A DNA stretch of 64,000 nt from Candidatus Poribacteria bacterium (GTDB taxonomy: Bacteria > Poribacteria > WGA-4E > PCPOR2b). Both the position numbers and the translations under genes were made by a program. The stretch is from assembly GCA_028819845.1 (NCBI GenBank), contig JAPPKS010000023.1, positions 219,673 to 283,672 on the forward strand, written 5' to 3'. Shown piece after piece: positions 2,790 through 19,611 of the stretch (the stretch's first letter is position 1; each line of letters opens with the position of its first letter). The notes beneath the pieces were generated by a model that worked only from the letters and a program-made list of their open reading frames with translations, had not been told where the DNA came from and did not search any database.

Positions 2790-3547
2790 CGCAGTTTTTG
2801 AAGTCTATCACTAGGGCGTGTTGACATTTGTGTGAATCCCTCCGTAACCGTAGGGGATCAACCGAGTGAATAGCGAGGGCGATAGTGTTTATCAGGTCAC
2901 CGCGCCCACAGATCGACCGCTGCTAGGAAACTCCCAACCATACAGATATGATTGGGAACAGAGGGTTGGGAAACTACGAATGTTCGTGGGGTTGTGCACT
3001 GCCCATGATTGTCGAGTTGTGATTGAATGTCAACAGTAACTAGCTTAAAATTAGACCTTGAAGTGTATTCGCAGTTTGATAAACATAACAAGCTACTCGG
3101 TTGACTTTCACTGTTCATAACTGCAATTGTTCTTCAATTTGACTTGACGGAATCAATGTGCCGCCGGATTGAAATAACGCGCTCATTTACACCGGGGCTG
3201 CAGTTTTTGTTCCACATTTACGTGACTATTATGGCTGCCTCACTTCGCAGCCAAGGTTTTTAGCTTCACGGCGTGCGGTTCATTTCGATTGGCAACTTGA
3301 AAGCGGGCGGTAAAATGCGAGGTAAGCGGCATTGCTATCCAAGGAATTAACGCTCCGGATTTGGTATGCTTACTGTCAGACATGCTCGATCAGAACCCAA
3401 CCTAATGACAACGTTTGGCAAAAAATTAATCGTTTTACTTTTTGAAACCGTTTCATAAGAGATGCGTTTGGTAAGGATAGAAATAATCCAAAAAAATCTG
3501 GGATTCGTATTAAATCTCTCTAATCCATCACGAGGAAACCATTTCAA
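2790..3547. other. Long intergenic region without a recognisable gene
   Basis: About 760 bases lie between the lolA promoter and the next gene. Short open frames here have no family character and poor codon structure. An 8-base inverted repeat, TCCCAACC (2932-2939) and GGTTGGGA (2964-2971), is the only obvious structure. No RNA gene, transposase or terminator was recognised. Confidence 0.5.
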
Positions 3548-4564
3548 ATGCCAAAACATTATACTTATCTAGTCTCTTGCGTCCGGGAAACTTCGATCGA
3601 ATGGGGAATTGAACTTCAATCCCTCGGCGATGCAGTGCCGCCAAAGGTCGTAAGATTGCCGCACCTGACTCGAGCGCTAACGGATACGCCATATTTTCAA
3701 TCAAAAAGTAACCCGATAGCTTATCTTAAGCAGCTAATAAAAGGCATGACGGATATGCTGCGTGATTACCACACACGTGTTTTCAGAAAGATTCAGATTA
3801 GGCTGGAAGAGTTACAGGTTGGCGAACGATGCTATGTCCAAGTTGCTTACACAGATAATGGTGCGGAAATTAAACCCCACAATTACGAAATCCAGCTTCT
3901 TGAGAACTCGCCGCTTGAGTCGCCAGACGCAAATCCCGATCGGTCAACTGCATTCTCTCCTACACTGAATGCGGACAATCTTTCTGGTTATCAGGGCGAA
4001 GAGGCCGTCCTGAATTGGCAAAACTCAACTAAACCAAGTGCGGAGAATCAAAATAAATCTTCCGTTGGTAATTCAACTGAGGTGGTTAAACAGATTACGC
4101 GGTTACATGAGAGAGTTAGGAAGCTTCAATCTGAAATGGACCTGATGAAGGAGAGACTGGACGAAGGGCGGCGCTTGTCAGAAAGAATTTTGAGTGACAG
4201 AGATTTTCTTGCATCTAGAAAGGCAGAGGTCGCTGGCCAACCCAATGCACCGCGAATTGGGAGCAAACGGGTTTATATGCGTCCAAACGGTGGAAAAGAT
4301 TCGCAGAAAAAGGATAGCATTATGCTCAATCAGGATGAAAGTACCGCTATCCAATACATCATGGACCAGAAGAAAATCACTGAATCTCAGTTGAGGAAGC
4401 AATACCACATTGGTAATGCTTCTGAAGTTATGGCGAGCTTGATTGACAAGATGGAACAGTACAATTCACCCTGCATTGATGTCCAGACGGATGAGAATGG
4501 TAAGTTGGTTTATCATTGGAATCAGCCGGATGATGGTGCGATGGCGGCGTCAAATCCTTCTTGA
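3548..4564 (+). CDS. Unrecognised protein with coiled coil and possible C-terminal winged helix
   Basis: I do not recognise this 338-residue soluble protein. Residues 1-120 look like a compact alpha/beta domain. A polar, Ser/Asn-rich linker follows (about 125-175). Residues 180-225 form a strongly predicted coiled coil (KQITRLHERVRKLQSEM, then LMKERLDEGRR). The end (about 265-325) has helices and a charged turn that could be a winged helix (AIQYIMDQKKITESQLRKQY, then NASEVMASLIDKME). There is no signal peptide or membrane segment, so it is probably cytoplasmic. The ATG has AGGAAA about ten bases upstream. It stands alone, divergent from the lolA operon and convergent with the AtuA operon. A DNA-binding or replication-related role is possible but is only a guess from the C-terminus. 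Confidence 0.7.
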   Translation: MPKHYTYLVSCVRETSIEWGIELQSLGDAVPPKVVRLPHLTRALTDTPYFQSKSNPIAYLKQLIKGMTDMLRDYHTRVFRKIQIRLEELQVGERCYVQVAYTDNGAEIKPHNYEIQLLENSPLESPDANPDRSTAFSPTLNADNLSGYQGEEAVLNWQNSTKPSAENQNKSSVGNSTEVVKQITRLHERVRKLQSEMDLMKERLDEGRRLSERILSDRDFLASRKAEVAGQPNAPRIGSKRVYMRPNGGKDSQKKDSIMLNQDESTAIQYIMDQKKITESQLRKQYHIGNASEVMASLIDKMEQYNSPCIDVQTDENGKLVYHWNQPDDGAMAASNPS

Positions 4565-4655
4565 TGGGCAGGTTCGTACCTTGAATGCATCGCAGTCAAG
4601 CCTAACCACAGTTCATTGCTGATTTTCAATCCGTTGTGCACGCTTCCGGATTTTA

Positions 4656-4982
4656 TCATTCAGGCGGTGCGTCAATCTCCATGTCGAGCAGAATGGCGCT
4701 AAACCCTTTGCCGTGCCCGTCAATCATCAGAGAACGTGACACCCCACCACCAAGCGCATGACGAACAACGAAGTTTAACGCGCCAATTTTCGGAAGTTCA
4801 TAGCGCTCTATTTCCCCGTGCGGTATGCCGCTGAGATAATCATCTACAGCTTCCGCCGTCACGTGTTCGGTCACCCACTCGTAGTGAATTTGGTCGTAGA
4901 CAATCAGCCCGATATTTACGGTATCAGCCTTGTCGCCCGATCGCGAGTGGCAAATCTGCCTAAGCTTGATTCGATTAGCCAT
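4656..4982 (-). CDS. Small AtuA-associated protein (AtuA C-terminal-like domain)
   Basis: This is a 108-residue protein resembling the C-terminal domain found fused to, or encoded beside, AtuA/DUF1446 proteins: it opens with KLRQICHSRSGDKADTVNIG and contains the line LNFVVRHALGGGVSRSL. In several lineages the two parts are one polypeptide; here they are separate genes eight to fourteen bases apart. ATG 4982 is chosen over ATG 4988 because GGGAGA lies six bases before it, a normal distance, whereas it nearly touches 4988. It is the third gene of the operon begun by the DUF6785-like membrane protein and presumably works in a complex with AtuA. Confidence 0.8.
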   Translation of the reverse strand: MANRIKLRQICHSRSGDKADTVNIGLIVYDQIHYEWVTEHVTAEAVDDYLSGIPHGEIERYELPKIGALNFVVRHALGGGVSRSLMIDGHGKGFSAILLDMEIDAPPE

Positions 4983-9684: not shown

Positions 9685-10173
9685 ATGCCGAAAAAAGTAC
9701 ATGTTCAAACGACAATTAACGGCGAAACTGTTGAATTTCTGTGTGAGCCTCGCCAGAGCCTGCTTGAAGTCCTTCGAGATGAACTCGGAATGACCGGCGC
9801 CAAAGAAGGTTGCAACAACGGAAACTGCGGCGCATGCAGCGTAATTCTTGACGGACGGCTGGTCAATTCCTGTATTGTGCTTGGCGTTGAAACTGAAGGG
9901 AAAACGGTGGAAACCGTTGAGGGTCTCGCCGAGCCGGGAAAACTCCATCCGATACAGGAGATTTTCTTGGAAGATGCGGCACTTCAGTGCGGTATCTGCA
10001 CGCCCGGCTTTATCGTAGCAACAAAGGCATTGCTGGACAAAAATCCCAACCCAACTGAGTACGAAGTCCGTTACTGGCTGGCAGGCAATCTATGCCGTTG
10101 TACCGGCTACGATAAGATTGTCCGCGCCGTGCTCGATTCGGCTCAAATTATGTCTTCGGAGGTAGGTGCATAA
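9685..10173 (+). CDS. (2Fe-2S)-binding subunit of molybdenum hydroxylase
   Basis: This 162-residue subunit carries the two [2Fe-2S] clusters that link the molybdenum site to FAD. The N-terminal plant-ferredoxin-like cluster ligands are C43, C48, C51 and C63 (EGCNNGNCGACSVILDG). The C-terminal helical cluster ligands are C102, C105, C137 and C139 (CGICTPGF and NLCRCTGY). All eight cysteines are present and the length is typical, so the subunit should be functional. Its stop overlaps the ATG of the large subunit (TAATG), a sign of translational coupling. Confidence 0.96.
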   Translation: MPKKVHVQTTINGETVEFLCEPRQSLLEVLRDELGMTGAKEGCNNGNCGACSVILDGRLVNSCIVLGVETEGKTVETVEGLAEPGKLHPIQEIFLEDAALQCGICTPGFIVATKALLDKNPNPTEYEVRYWLAGNLCRCTGYDKIVRAVLDSAQIMSSEVGA

Positions 10174-12428
10174 TGTCAGAGAAGAAAGAATATAAAGTCA
10201 TCGGCACCCGTCCTATCCGGCATGATGGTGTCGACAAGGTGACAGGCCGCGCCCTCTACGGCGCAGATTTCCAAACTACGGGGCTGCTGCACGGCAAGGT
10301 TTTGCGCAGTCGCCACGCCCATGCCCGCATAAAATCCATTGACACTAGCCGCGCGGAAGCCCATCCCGATGTGAAAGCGGTCGTGACTGCGGCGGACCTC
10401 CCTACGGCAGCAGACAAAATCGCCGATCTCGGTGAAAGTGCAGTCAATCTGAAATATCTGTGCGACAATATTCTTGCGAGCGACAAAGCCCTATACACAG
10501 GGCATGCAGTCGCTGCACTCGCGGCGAGCGACCCTCATACGGCTGAAGAAGCGCTTGAACTCATTGATGTCGAGTACGAGGTGTTACCGCCGGTGCTTGA
10601 AGTGCGGGAAGCGATGGAAGACGATGCGCCGCTGCTGCATGAAAATCTGAAAACCGACGCGATGGGAGAAAAGTCTGAAGAGTCGAGTAATGTCGCAAGT
10701 CATTTCCAACACAAAAAGGGCGACATTGACACGGGCTTTGCGGAAGCGGACGTTGTCATCGAACACGATTTTGTTACCGGCACCGTGCATCAAGGCTATA
10801 TCGAACCTCACAACGCAACCGCACTGTACAACCCCGACGGGCAACTCACCATCTGGTGCAGCACGCAAGGCGCATTTGCCGTGCGTCAACAAGTATCGGA
10901 AATCCTCCAGATTCCGGTTTCCAAGGTTAAGGTGGTGCCGATGGAGATTGGCGGCGGGTTCGGCGGGAAGATTAGTGTTTATCTTGAGCCGGTTGCCGCG
11001 CTGCTTTCCAAGAAATCGGGCCGCCCCGTCAAGGTCTTGATGAATCGGGCAGAAGTTTTTGAAGCCACCGGGCCGACCCCTGCATCTTACATCCGAGTAA
11101 AGATGGGCGTCACTAATGATGGGCGAATCACCGCAGCAGAGGGCTACTTGGCGTTTGAAGCCGGCGCTTACCCGGGTTCACCCGTTGGCGCGGGAGCCAT
11201 GTGTATCTTCTCCCCTTACAATATCCCAAATGGGCTGATTGATGGGTATGATGTAGTCGTCAATAAACCGAAATCTAACGCGTACCGCGCGCCCGGCGCG
11301 ACAAATGCCGAGTTTGCTGCCGAAACCGTCGTCGATGAAATCTGCGAGAAGCTTGGCATGGATCCGCTCGAATTCCGCATCCTCAACGGAGCAGAAGAGG
11401 GAGTCAGCCGCATTGACGGCCCCGTATTCCCGCGAATCGGTTGCATCGAAGCAACTGAAGCCGCAAAGGAACATCCACACTACGAAGCGCCGCTCGAAGG
11501 GGAAAATAGAGGGCGCGGTGTGGCGTCCGGGTTCTGGTTCAATGTCGGATTGAAGTCGAGCGTCGCAATTAACGTGAACCCCGATGGTACCATTAGCCTT
11601 GTTGAGGGTTCGACCGATATTGGCGGCACACGGGCGTCGATTGCAATGCAAGCCGCGGAGGTACTGGGAATTCCCGCCGAATCGGTCTATCCCACCGTAG
11701 TCGATACAAATTCGGTCGGGTATACAGATGTAACCGGCGGCAGCCGAACCGCATTTGCGACGGGATACGCCGCCTATGAAGCTGCGCAGGATGTCAAGCA
11801 GCAGATGACCGAACGCGCCGCAAAATTGTGGGAGGTCGATGCAGCGGAAGTGCAGTTCGCGGATGGCGATTTTGTATGCGTGAACGGCAAAGATGAGCGC
11901 ATGAGTTTCAAGGAGTTGGCTGCGAGGCTGGATGAAGTCGGCGGTCCGGTCACCGGGCGTGCTTCCGTCGATCCGACTGGGGTTGGCGGCGCTTTTGCCA
12001 CGCACATCGTTGACGTTGAGGTCGATCCGGACACCGGCAAGGTCGAAATCCTGCGCTACACAGCGACGCAAGACGCTGGAAAAGCCGTCCATCCCAGTTA
12101 TGTCGAAGGGCAGATGCAAGGCGGCGTCACGCAAGGGATTGGCTGGGCGTTGAATGAGGAATATATCTACGACAAAGACGGGCGAATGTCCAACGCGAGT
12201 TTCCTCGATTACCGCATGCCAACCTGCCTAGATTTGCCGATGATTGACACGGTCATCGTTGAAGTTCCCAATCCGGGCCACCCGTACGGTGTGCGAGGCG
12301 TAGGGGAGGTTCCAATCGTTCCGCCCCCCGCTGCGATCGCCAACGCTATCTATCGCGCAATTGGTGTTCGGATGAAGGAGCTCCCAATGTCTCCCGGCCG
12401 GATACTCAAAACGATGGGCAAACTCTAA
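10173..12428 (+). CDS. Xanthine dehydrogenase family molybdopterin-binding subunit
   Basis: This is the 751-residue catalytic subunit. The first domain (about 1-130) is the a/b hammerhead, beginning GTRPIRHDGVDKVTGRALYG. The molybdenum cofactor domains follow with EPHNATALY, EIGGGFGGK, AYRAPGATNAEFA and, near the C-terminus, RGVGEVPIVPP; the Glu in this last motif matches the catalytic base of xanthine dehydrogenases. It lacks the AYxCSFR loop of true carbon monoxide dehydrogenases, so a purine, aldehyde or N-heterocycle substrate is more likely than CO. The substrate cannot be read from the sequence. A MoaD-like protein lies 245 bases downstream, but no XdhC-type maturation factor is present in the window. 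Confidence 0.93.
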   Translation: MSEKKEYKVIGTRPIRHDGVDKVTGRALYGADFQTTGLLHGKVLRSRHAHARIKSIDTSRAEAHPDVKAVVTAADLPTAADKIADLGESAVNLKYLCDNILASDKALYTGHAVAALAASDPHTAEEALELIDVEYEVLPPVLEVREAMEDDAPLLHENLKTDAMGEKSEESSNVASHFQHKKGDIDTGFAEADVVIEHDFVTGTVHQGYIEPHNATALYNPDGQLTIWCSTQGAFAVRQQVSEILQIPVSKVKVVPMEIGGGFGGKISVYLEPVAALLSKKSGRPVKVLMNRAEVFEATGPTPASYIRVKMGVTNDGRITAAEGYLAFEAGAYPGSPVGAGAMCIFSPYNIPNGLIDGYDVVVNKPKSNAYRAPGATNAEFAAETVVDEICEKLGMDPLEFRILNGAEEGVSRIDGPVFPRIGCIEATEAAKEHPHYEAPLEGENRGRGVASGFWFNVGLKSSVAINVNPDGTISLVEGSTDIGGTRASIAMQAAEVLGIPAESVYPTVVDTNSVGYTDVTGGSRTAFATGYAAYEAAQDVKQQMTERAAKLWEVDAAEVQFADGDFVCVNGKDERMSFKELAARLDEVGGPVTGRASVDPTGVGGAFATHIVDVEVDPDTGKVEILRYTATQDAGKAVHPSYVEGQMQGGVTQGIGWALNEEYIYDKDGRMSNASFLDYRMPTCLDLPMIDTVIVEVPNPGHPYGVRGVGEVPIVPPPAAIANAIYRAIGVRMKELPMSPGRILKTMGKL

Positions 12429-13811: not shown

Positions 13812-13944
13812 CACATGTACTTCCTTTGCACTTACTCTCATCACCTCACAACTTTGCCGACGCGCGCCGATATATCGTAGCATCTTCTTTCTTCAAATGT
13901 GGTTACAGTCATCCACCGGCATCAAGCGCAACGATTTGCAGTTC

Positions 13945-14211
13945 TTGTAGGTTGGGTTGAGCGAATAAACCCAAAATCGTAACAATGGCAGATGTTCGGC
14001 CGGAACATCCAAACGCCCTTTTACCGAAATTGATGTAGCGTAACCCAACGCTTTTCAATTCACCCAGCTATTTCTGTATGCTCAAATACATTCGAAATAA
14101 CCAAAAGCGTTGGGTTCGCTAAATCCTAACAAACTCTATACAACATCAAATCCCGATATCAATTCGGCATATTGCTTCCGTTTCACTTGCTCCGCTTAAC
14201 CCAACCTACAA
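13945..14211. mobile_element. TIR-bounded non-autonomous element, copy A
   Basis: TTGTAGGTTGGGTT (13945-13958) and AACCCAACCTACAA (14198-14211) are perfect inverted ends of a 267-bp noncoding element. Inside, ACCCAACGCTTTT and AAAAGCGTTGGGT form a second inverted pair. The 3' part (GCTAAATCC...ACAACATCAAATCCCGA...GCTCCGCTTAACCCAACC) matches copy B at 19271-19508 closely, while the left parts differ more. It lies between the LamG copy A and a truncated coding fragment. Confidence 0.7.
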
Positions 14212-14259
14212 AAACTTTAATTCCTCATTGGCGTCTAGAACAGGTTAAAGCAACGCTAA

Positions 14260-14457
14260 TTTCTATTTTGCCAGAAGAAAAACAAAACCAAAAAAGTCAT
14301 TGAATACTTCAACTTAAGAAACCAGTCGAAGCATTTACTGAAATGTGCCAAGCGCGCGGTGGAGATAGCCATTGAGCAGAACGAACAAACCGCGATTGAC
14401 TATCTAGAATATGAGACGCAGGTCGAAGACCCTCGGAACGGAGAGGTGACAAGATGA
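14260..14457 (+). pseudogene. C-terminal remnant of an unknown gene, coupled to the AAA ATPase
   Basis: An open frame of 65 codons without a plausible ATG runs from just after a TAA (14257-14259) to a TGA that overlaps the ATPase start (ATGA, 14454-14457). It encodes a charged helical end, including HLLKCAKRAVEIAIEQNEQ and TAIDYLEYE. The protein-like amphipathic pattern and the stop/start overlap suggest it is the tail of a real gene that once preceded the ATPase and lost its 5' part, perhaps when element A (ending at 14211) inserted. I do not recognise the family. Confidence 0.45.
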
Positions 14458-15758
14458 GCATCATTCAATTTTCAATGGAAGAGGTACGCTGCTTTGCAGA
14501 ACGCCAAGAGTTCAACATCCGCCCTCTGACGTTTTTGGTCGGAGAGAACAGTACCGGCAAGACCACAGCGTTGGCATGTTTCCAAGTGTTATCAGATTAT
14601 CTCATAGATGGGGGAATTAATTTCAATTCGCCGCCCTATTCAATGGGAATTTTTAGAGATATTGTCAGAAACAGCAGGAAAACAGAAAAGGTGTTCACGC
14701 TTGGAGTTACAAATGGTGATGTTGGGTATACAGTTGAATTTGCAAAAAAAATGGGAGGGGTTGAACCTGTCGTCAAGTCAATAACGGTGAAATTTACTGA
14801 TGGCGAAATTGTAATAAGAGCTAGCAATACAATGGGAGACCGAATGCGTTTAACCTCCTGTGATAAAGCGCAGAATCAGTATCATATAGATGTTCGTTCT
14901 GAAGCTTTGGATATTTATCCTCCTCGCGACCTCTTAGAGGATTTTAAGCGCGGATGGCATGAGTTATCTGAAGATGAAAAGGCATTGAGGGACTATTTGG
15001 AGAAAACTGAAATATCATGGCGATGGTGGCATGGGGACAACGTATTCGTATGTAATACTGCACCTATTCGTACACAACCTAAACGGACCTATAACCCAAC
15101 ACGACAATTTTACGATCCTGAAGGAAGCCATGTGCCGATGTGGTTCATGGAGACAAAAGCGACTGAAAAAGAGGAATGGGAAACTCTGAAAGATCAGTTG
15201 GTCGAATTTGGTAAACGTTCGGGGCTATTTCAGAATATAGATATCAATAATCTTGGTGGGGCGAGGGGTAATCCGTTCCAACTGAAGGTGACGGTGAGGG
15301 GACCTAATTCTAATATTGTTGATGTCGGTTACGGTGTCAGTCAAATTTTGCCAATCTTGGCACGTGTTTTAGAATATCCCGTTTTTCGCCGAGGCACAGG
15401 TGGGATTCTGCATATAGGACCAATGCCAGTTTCCTTATTACAACAACCCGAAGTCCATCTGCACCCGAGGGCACAAGCAGAGTTATCTTCACTACTAGCG
15501 ACACTGGCATGCGAGGGTAACCGGGCATTTATCGTTGAAACACATAGTGATTACATGATTGACCGGGTGCGCGTAGAAATCAGAAAGGGCACCATCCACC
15601 CTGAATATGTGTCGCTCATAAATTTAGAACCAAAGGGCAATGTTGTCAAGGTGCATAACATCAGTTTTGATAACATGGGTAATATGGAAAACGTACCGCC
15701 GCACTATAGAGAATTTTTCCTGAACGAAACCGACCGGTTCATGGGTTTTGAGGATTAA
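14454..15758 (+). CDS. AAA (ABC-type) ATPase of the AAA_15/DUF3696-like group
   Basis: This 434-residue SMC/ABC-like ATPase resembles the OLD/AAA_15 proteins common in defence and toxin-antitoxin-like loci. Walker A is GENSTGKTT (residues 30-38), an ABC-like signature region is GYGVSQILPIL (292-302), Walker B is LLQQPE (328-333) and the switch His is in ETHSDY (362-367). The C-terminal 60 residues match the DUF3696-like end of such ATPases (GNVVKVHNISFDNMGN). There is no fused TOPRIM nuclease. The next gene, two bases after the stop, encodes a PIN-like nuclease, so the pair probably works as ATPase sensor plus effector. The known PARIS system pairs a related ATPase with a TOPRIM protein; the PIN partner is different here. 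Confidence 0.85.
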   Translation: MSIIQFSMEEVRCFAERQEFNIRPLTFLVGENSTGKTTALACFQVLSDYLIDGGINFNSPPYSMGIFRDIVRNSRKTEKVFTLGVTNGDVGYTVEFAKKMGGVEPVVKSITVKFTDGEIVIRASNTMGDRMRLTSCDKAQNQYHIDVRSEALDIYPPRDLLEDFKRGWHELSEDEKALRDYLEKTEISWRWWHGDNVFVCNTAPIRTQPKRTYNPTRQFYDPEGSHVPMWFMETKATEKEEWETLKDQLVEFGKRSGLFQNIDINNLGGARGNPFQLKVTVRGPNSNIVDVGYGVSQILPILARVLEYPVFRRGTGGILHIGPMPVSLLQQPEVHLHPRAQAELSSLLATLACEGNRAFIVETHSDYMIDRVRVEIRKGTIHPEYVSLINLEPKGNVVKVHNISFDNMGNMENVPPHYREFFLNETDRFMGFED

Positions 15759-15760
15759 TT

Positions 15761-16246
15761 ATGTGTATAATCTTGGACACCAACGCTTTTGGGAATTTCA
15801 AAAAAAGAGATAAGGGTGAAATAGACGAAGATATGGAGCCTATATGGAGTTGGTTATATCAAAAGCGCGGGAAAATCGCATATTCGCCGACCGAAAAAAT
15901 ACAAGGTGAGTGGAAAAAAGGGGGAATGATAAATCAGATGAAAACTCTGAACCAAGCCGGCAAACTCAAATTAGTGTCGGCAGACGATGTGCGAGAAAAA
16001 GCTGATGAACTAAAACTTTCGGGGTTACTTAAATCAGACGACCCCGATTTGATTGCATTAGCTAAAATTGCAAAGGTGAAAGTATTGGTTGTGCAGCGCC
16101 TTACTGACATACCGCGCCGGGGGCGAAAAACAGGAAATAGCGGCGCTGATTCCGATTTGCGGACAGACTTTAAAAATCTGGTCGGCGGTGCAGTGTACAT
16201 GACAAAGAAACATTCGCACCTGCTGCGCAGAGATACCTGTCCGTAG
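15761..16246 (+). CDS. PIN-like nuclease, partner of the upstream ATPase
   Basis: This is a 161-residue PIN-like protein. The first strand holds the acidic motif IILDTN (D6), a middle acidic residue is E45, DDPDLIALAKIA (D93, D94, D96) matches the third acidic position and DSDLRTDF (D130, D132, D136) the fourth, with an invariant-looking TDF. PIN domains are metal-dependent ribonucleases, usually cutting tRNA, rRNA or mRNA. The gene begins two bases after the ATPase stop. No small antitoxin gene is adjacent, so control probably comes from the ATPase rather than from a VapB-type antitoxin. Assignment to the PIN superfamily is from motif order, not from a search. Confidence 0.7.
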   Translation: MCIILDTNAFGNFKKRDKGEIDEDMEPIWSWLYQKRGKIAYSPTEKIQGEWKKGGMINQMKTLNQAGKLKLVSADDVREKADELKLSGLLKSDDPDLIALAKIAKVKVLVVQRLTDIPRRGRKTGNSGADSDLRTDFKNLVGGAVYMTKKHSHLLRRDTCP

Positions 16247-19267: not shown

Positions 19268-19511
19268 TTTTTGTAGGTTGGGTAGAGCGGGTAATTACCA
19301 TTCAGTTCTTAAGAAAATAATCGGGTACGGGTAACTCTCGTCGTGATTTCCCAGATTCATGTAGTGAAACCCAACGCTTTTCTGTCGGCCAGAGGTTTGA
19401 AAAGCGTTGGGTTCGCTAAATTCAAACATCCTCTATACAACATCAAATCCCGAAATCCATTTGACATATTTCGTCCATTTCAATTGCTCCGCTTAACCCA
19501 ACCTACAAAAA
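19268..19511. mobile_element. TIR-bounded non-autonomous element, copy B
   Basis: TTTTTGTAGGTTGGGT (19268-19283) and ACCCAACCTACAAAAA (19496-19511) are perfect 16-bp inverted ends of a 244-bp noncoding element. An inner hairpin pairs CCCAACGCTTTTC with GAAAAGCGTTGGG. The right half closely matches element A. It lies in the 625-bp gap between the binding-protein gene and LamG copy B; apart from it and the promoter below, nothing was recognised in that gap. Confidence 0.7.
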
Positions 19512-19611
19512 CTGGGAATCGAATCAAGTCACCATCATAAGCGTGAGTTTTCTATGAAGGGTGCGTAATCATCCAATGAAAAAGCGAAATTTCAAGATGG
19601 TAGGTTTCGTA

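Follow-up and report, generated by a model that had tools for sequence, protein, structure and literature searches.

The locus studied here raises the question of what an ATPase gene and the small gene directly behind it do in a poribacterial genome, and whether the truncated reading frame in front of them is what remains of a third component. We call the whole 64,000-nucleotide stretch of DNA that was analysed the window. It belongs to a host genome of 4.6 Mb, whose closest relatives are sponge-associated Candidatus Poribacteria. An initial annotation, made from the sequence without database searches, had described an ATPase gene followed after two bases by a PIN-like nuclease gene in repeat-rich surroundings, and had regarded this pair as a possible undescribed defence or dormancy system. 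The open reading frames agree with these coordinates: both genes are intact, lie on the same strand and are separated by a gap of 2 bases (Table 1). The repeats are likewise real, as a block in front of the locus recurs many times in the host genome.

Table 1. Features of the ATPase-nuclease locus (positions in the window)
Feature	Position	Strand	Basis or remark
Dispersed repeat block	13890..14245	.	Directly 5' of the hsdS stub; 78 matches in the host genome
HsdS C-terminal stub	14290..14457	+	77% identical over 48 aa to the end of HsdS in sibling G004
OLD/Rad50-type ABC ATPase, 434 aa, predicted sensor/regulator	14454..15758	+	Pfam AAA_15, PADLOC, fold matches
Walker A GENSTGKTT, residues 30-38	14541..14567	+	Kept across 67 homologues, with G30, G35 and K36 invariant at its core
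Walker B region QQPEVHLHP, residues 330-338	15441..15467	+	Almost every position invariant in 67 homologues
ETHS motif, residues 362-365, typical of the OLD/AAA_21 class	15537..15548	+	At any one position, no more than one of 67 homologues deviates
PIN-fold nuclease, 161 aa, predicted effector; acidic D6, E50, D94, D130, D136	15761..16246	+	Pfam PIN, AlphaFold2, Foldseek
Nuclease residue 96, Asp in the window copy, His in the other 66	16046..16048	+	Alignment of 67 nucleases

Protein families and active sites

The assignment of the first protein to an AAA_15-like class proved correct, with matches to Pfam AAA_15 (2.9e-16) and AAA_21, and both Walker motifs and the ETHS-type motif, as expected of an OLD-class member with this fold, are present. 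Its best PADLOC matches are NsnB (2.3e-36), PDC-M55A, HEC-03B and AriA (models at 1.3e-18 and 3.2e-14), so that NsnB, which we take to be a component of the Menshen system, scores above AriA; a literature search on NsnB yielded nothing pertinent. In a structure comparison, the AlphaFold model of the ATPase groups with PtuA of retrons and Septu, with retron ATPases, Rad50 and GajA; the low confidence of this model (pLDDT 64) allows only the fold class to be taken from it. ATPases of the AAA_15 class are numerous in the host genome (more than a dozen), and several of them cluster at 78-116 kb of contig C9, which is possibly the main defence island of this genome.

The small protein is much harder to place. 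Used as a single query, the window nuclease gave nothing significant in Pfam, PADLOC, NCBIfam, PHROGs or the PDB; sequence-profile searches of the PDB returned only coiled-coil, ferritin and similar noise, and a search of the genome contig collection with one nuclease sequence gave no matches. The family is recognised only through a profile and through its distant members, which match Pfam PIN at 2.8e-6 and other PIN families more weakly. The initial annotation had named the absence of a PIN fold from a structure prediction as evidence against its reading. The AlphaFold2 model (pLDDT 86) does show this fold, and mainly PIN proteins stand at the top of the Foldseek list against the PDB (AF1683, HARP RNase P, Nob1 and VapC toxins), with a modest best E-value of 0.004. 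The acidic set of PIN proteins is also kept: E50, D94, D130 and D136 occur in all 67 aligned nucleases and D6 in 66 of them. The C-terminus of the nuclease is conserved as well, and its C160 is almost invariant. From fold and acidic residues, the small open reading frame is predicted to encode a nuclease of the PIN superfamily with putative ribonuclease activity. As the exchange of histidine for aspartate at residue 96 is confined to the window copy among the 67 sequences, activity of this particular copy should not be assumed, and the exchange may alter it.

Conservation and distribution of the pair

If the two genes were neighbours by chance, they should not be found together elsewhere, and a lack of conserved adjacency in other genomes was the second result that the initial annotation had named as refuting its reading. 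However, the ATPase gene lies directly upstream of the nuclease gene in all 29 loci fetched from other genomes and in 67 of the 68 loci recovered by a nuclease-profile search of a public genome collection (the two sets overlap and the counts are not independent), which excludes a chance adjacency. Going by the labels of the metagenome-bin records, these 68 loci span about ten phyla, with representatives of Poribacteria, Latescibacterota, Chloroflexota, Pseudomonadota, Planctomycetota, Acidobacteriota, Armatimonadota, Rhodothermales/Bacteroidetes, Acidimicrobiales, Cyanobacteria and Nitrospira. In most loci the spacing between the two genes amounts to -1 to +6 bases. A locus from Desulfobacterales (L114) contains a partial nuclease match and no ATPase.

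Among related genomes the presence of the pair is patchy: a protein search detected the nuclease in 50 of 98 genomes. The reverse search found the ATPase in 52 of 96 genomes (E ≤ 1e-40) with the nuclease adjoining in nearly all of them, the exceptions including one contig end and one broken nuclease. The identity matrices of the two proteins correlate with r = 0.90 for the whole set and 0.86 for 21 distant members, and with median pairwise dN/dS values of 0.18 for the ATPase and 0.20 for the nuclease both genes are under purifying selection. In the tree the Poribacteria copies form one clade. Three gammaproteobacterial copies linked to restriction-modification (R-M) genes (L099, L101 and L104) branch just outside the copies from Poribacteria, Latescibacterota and Caldilineaceae, on long branches that make this placement unsure.

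The upstream frame is a remnant of hsdS

The initial annotation had noticed a truncated frame whose stop overlaps the start of the ATPase gene, and had concluded that an older third component may have been lost. The overlap is there: a 65-aa frame (14260-14457) ends in a TGA that overlaps the ATG of the ATPase gene (ATGA). In sibling genomes, the last 48 amino acids of a 471-aa protein that matches Pfam Methylase_S (3.9e-6) are 77% identical to 48 residues of this frame. The sibling G004 still has the complete arrangement, consisting of a 788-aa HSDR_N and N6_Mtase fusion protein, the 471-aa HsdS and the pair, and there the end of hsdS overlaps the ATPase start in the same way as in the window. 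Because of the identity to the HsdS C-terminus, the Methylase_S match and this shared overlap, the frame is a coding remnant, namely what is left of the C-terminal end of a specificity subunit of type I restriction.

Thus a remnant does exist, but it does not stem from an obligate third part of the pair. That possibility is ruled out, since the stub is HsdS, which is absent from most relatives, and most relatives consist of the two genes only; what is missing is the host restriction system. A similar stub is retained in G007, while in G006 a retained hsdS is separated from the ATPase gene by two extra genes. In locus L062 two proteins of 166 and 256 aa without Pfam matches are encoded between HsdS and the ATPase (3416-4676); the tail of the 256-aa protein resembles that of HsdS, as though only the overlapping end had survived a recombination. 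In the window the dispersed repeat, of which one further copy (89% identical) lies at 19400-19513, may be a trace of the event by which most of hsdS was lost. Within the explanation that we prefer below, the window pair would be a stand-alone survivor of an arrangement linked to type I R-M.

Restriction and BREX-related settings

Several relatives are found in operons of other restriction systems. In L099 a type III-like mod gene, whose stop overlaps the ATPase start, is followed by the pair and by res, which encodes a helicase-endonuclease. Res and Mod adjoin the pair in L101, while in L104 the order is Res, other genes, pair and Mod. Type I linkage is seen in G004, in L098 (a Poribacterium with HsdM and HsdS upstream of the pair), in L121 (HsdR upstream) and in L125 (HsdM and HsdS downstream); the window has only the hsdS stub, and such linkage is absent in most Poribacteria. 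The HsdM-type methylase adjoining the pair in L125 (907-3411) carries a C-terminal PIN_3-like extension (0.00032), a methylase-PIN fusion.

A third setting is formed by DUF499 loci, which a recent survey describes as BREX-related (PMC12839542). In a Rhodothermales record, a DUF1156-type methylase-like gene and a DUF499 ATPase gene enclose two tandem copies of the pair (L110, 2512-6468), where the DUF1156 label reflects our own reading and mutual similarity of the proteins, the L110 protein being cut at the locus start and without a Pfam match. The arrangement in L112 is similar, and in Acidimicrobiales (L113/L182) the pair stands beside a DUF1156/DUF499 locus. This BREX-related context, seen in L110, L112 and L113, does not occur in the window. 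Between the DUF1156-like and DUF499 genes of L182 there is also a second ATPase gene together with a small TOPRIM-like open reading frame (9740-11577), and two different ATPase-nuclease modules may thus share one defence locus. In a sponge-symbiont Synechococcus (L116, 6856-10392), a 1178-aa SIR2_2 protein (1.9e-23) adjoins the pair.

The placement of the pair in restriction and BREX-related operons suggests a defence role, as had been proposed from the window alone. Methylase genes occur within 6 kb of the pair in 5 of 23 genomes, against 1.39 expected (p = 0.009); as the test was devised after the loci had been seen and covers methylase families only, this enrichment is supportive and not decisive. 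One could assume that the pair is a defence module which owes its proximity to R-M genes only to the clustering of defence genes, and that it senses some other phage component without guarding restriction. The variety of the linked systems (type I, type III and BREX-related) is in line with this, and so are the raised odds of proximity in R-M-rich genomes, which reach an expected 22% in G100. Against it stand the stop/start overlaps with hsdS and mod on the same strand and the insertion of the pair into mod-res and DUF1156-DUF499 gene sets, and such overlaps and insertions within operons are more than loose clustering. We think that this alternative is less likely than not; it differs from the guarding of restriction that we favour in the trigger only, and the confidence that we place in the two overlaps.

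Stand-alone copies and decay of the nuclease

The co-occurrence in defence islands that the initial annotation had suggested as a test is found in part: several lineages have R-M or BREX-related flanks, but most Poribacteria copies are surrounded by ordinary genes. In that family of Poribacteria from which most copies come, synteny is conserved and the neighbourhood is not one of defence: the pair is enclosed by the same ordinary genes, which according to our reading of the sequences are vWA/MoxR-type genes on one flank and, on the opposite flank, genes for a thiamine-diphosphate enzyme and a PhyH-like oxygenase. The window copy is not flanked by a complete R-M system, and among the distant loci many to most are without an obvious defence gene in the surrounding 6 kb. 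A pair that is mostly alone in such surroundings weakens the simple defence-island reading. Moreover, we found no relatives of the pair on plasmids, phages or viral contigs, which is unusual for a mobile defence cassette.

These observations raise the question of whether the pair is a chromosomal module for RNA processing or DNA repair, possibly of defensive origin and by now a housekeeping function in Poribacteria. Its single copy in roughly half of the genomes of the order, the conserved synteny with vWA/MoxR and metabolic genes, the low dN/dS and the single Poribacteria clade are all compatible with such a role. A housekeeping function is harder to reconcile with the patchy presence, with repeated loss of the nuclease, and with the R-M and BREX-related contexts that other phyla and some Poribacteria show, and we consider it improbable.

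The loss of the nuclease is one-sided. Among 50 genomes of the Poribacteria order that were checked, the nuclease was broken without a break in the ATPase in 5, both genes were broken in 1, and the ATPase alone in none; some of the 5 nuclease breaks may be assembly errors, two of them lie in near-complete genomes (G041 and G046), and in another of the 5, G070, the ATPase is split across contig ends. Breakage confined to the nuclease would be expected if the nuclease is the costly part. At the G046 locus (L133), just 3' of the ATPase gene, the PIN gene has lost its second half and its frame ends in an antitoxin-like tail; it is followed by an open reading frame for a ParE-type toxin (Pfam ParE_toxin, 1.6e-6).

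This pattern of decay also fits with a toxin that is never left without its partner, and together with the PIN fold and the tight two-gene operon it might indicate an unusual toxin-antitoxin system, in which a VapC-like toxin is neutralised through binding by the ATPase and serves addiction or stress dormancy instead of phage sensing. VapBC systems likewise contain a small PIN-fold protein. However, the initial annotation was right that a VapB-type antitoxin is missing, as the ATPase and nuclease genes are the sole genes common to all 21 loci compared, and the partner is an ABC ATPase of 430 aa with invariant catalytic motifs and not a DNA-binding antitoxin of the VapB type. The placement in R-M and BREX-related operons suits a sensor better, and in the analogous WonAB system, which blocks translation, the effector is toxic only together with its ATPase, which rules out simple sequestration there (PMC12137116). 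A toxin-antitoxin function of the pair is therefore rather unlikely in our opinion.

Relation to known systems

The closest models are PARIS, WonAB and PrrC. PARIS also combines an OLD-class ABC ATPase gene with a neighbouring small nuclease gene; the ATPase described here matches the AriA models, and the R-M-linked placement of the pair would suit a sensor of anti-restriction. According to the survey, PARIS has the same ATPase class, senses an anti-restriction protein and cuts tRNA (PMC12839542). In contrast to the PIN fold found here, its effector AriB is a TOPRIM/DUF4435 protein, and there was no AriB match among the PADLOC matches of the nucleases. WonAB resembles the pair as a two-gene operon of an OLD-ABC ATPase and a standalone nuclease, and its translation-blocking abortive infection can serve as a model; its nuclease is of the PD-(D/E)XK type, however, and it was found on a prophage, whereas the present pair was not found on mobile elements. 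PrrC of EcoprrI, consisting of an ABC ATPase and an anticodon nuclease, is silenced by the linked type I R-M enzyme (PMC2610378). PrrC and RloC resemble the pair in the logic of an ABC ATPase and a tRNA nuclease tied to a type I R-M operon, a link that the pair has in some of its loci, but they are one fused polypeptide with another nuclease domain, while here there are two separate open reading frames and the tRNA target is putative.

Since NsnB is the best PADLOC match of the ATPase, a relation to Menshen (NsnA-NsnB-NsnC) also has to be considered. Menshen is a three-gene set with DUF262 or TOPRIM partners (PMC10952713), whereas only two genes are conserved here; no further conserved gene stands beside the pair and hence there is no Menshen-like DUF262 or TOPRIM partner, nor did the nucleases give a PADLOC match to Menshen.

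To call the pair undescribed would be too strong. The 2026 survey lists OLD-ABC ATPases paired with PIN endoRNases that were found in silico in BREX and BREX-related loci (PMC12839542). This is the same kind of pairing, and some of the relatives presented here lie in DUF499 loci; such modules are treated collectively there and Poribacteria are absent from the main text. Other PIN defence systems have already been validated (PMC13092281), and our family was set beside the systems of both publications by description only. The present analysis adds the definition of one coherent family that has conserved residues and spans about ten phyla. It finds this family inserted into type I, type III and DUF499 operons and standing alone in Poribacteria, and it identifies the window frame as an hsdS stub.

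Proposed function

We favour the explanation, with moderate confidence, that the pair is a two-gene sensor-effector defence module which backs restriction and whose ATPase licenses the PIN nuclease upon attack. Following the models of PARIS, WonAB and PrrC, the OLD-class ABC ATPase, probably as a dimer, would restrain, hold or position the nuclease and act as the sensor of infection, most plausibly of a failure or inhibition of restriction caused by an anti-restriction protein or a disturbed R-M complex. The trigger would lead the ATPase to license the nuclease, so that control would be by activation and not by neutralisation. The nuclease would then cut an essential RNA, most likely tRNA, and the resulting stop of translation would abort the phage infection or send the cell into dormancy.

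A more far-reaching and decidedly tentative idea, which we would not expect to hold in full, is that PrrC has a widespread, as yet unnamed counterpart in this two-gene pair. A PIN tRNA nuclease and its OLD-ABC sensor would have been plugged into the operons of restriction machineries that are unrelated to each other (type I, type III and DUF499) in order to guard them, and in sponge-symbiont Poribacteria they would now be a stand-alone, vertically inherited chromosomal immune pair.

The mod-pair-res and DUF1156-pair-pair-DUF499 operons are gene sets in which these ideas can be tested directly. If they are true, a single small module has joined several restriction systems that are unrelated to one another, and the guarding of restriction by RNA cleavage would be a general design and not a special case of PrrC and PARIS. 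It would also mean that uncultured sponge symbionts can maintain such a pair like any ordinary chromosomal gene, in a place where searches based on co-localisation would miss it.
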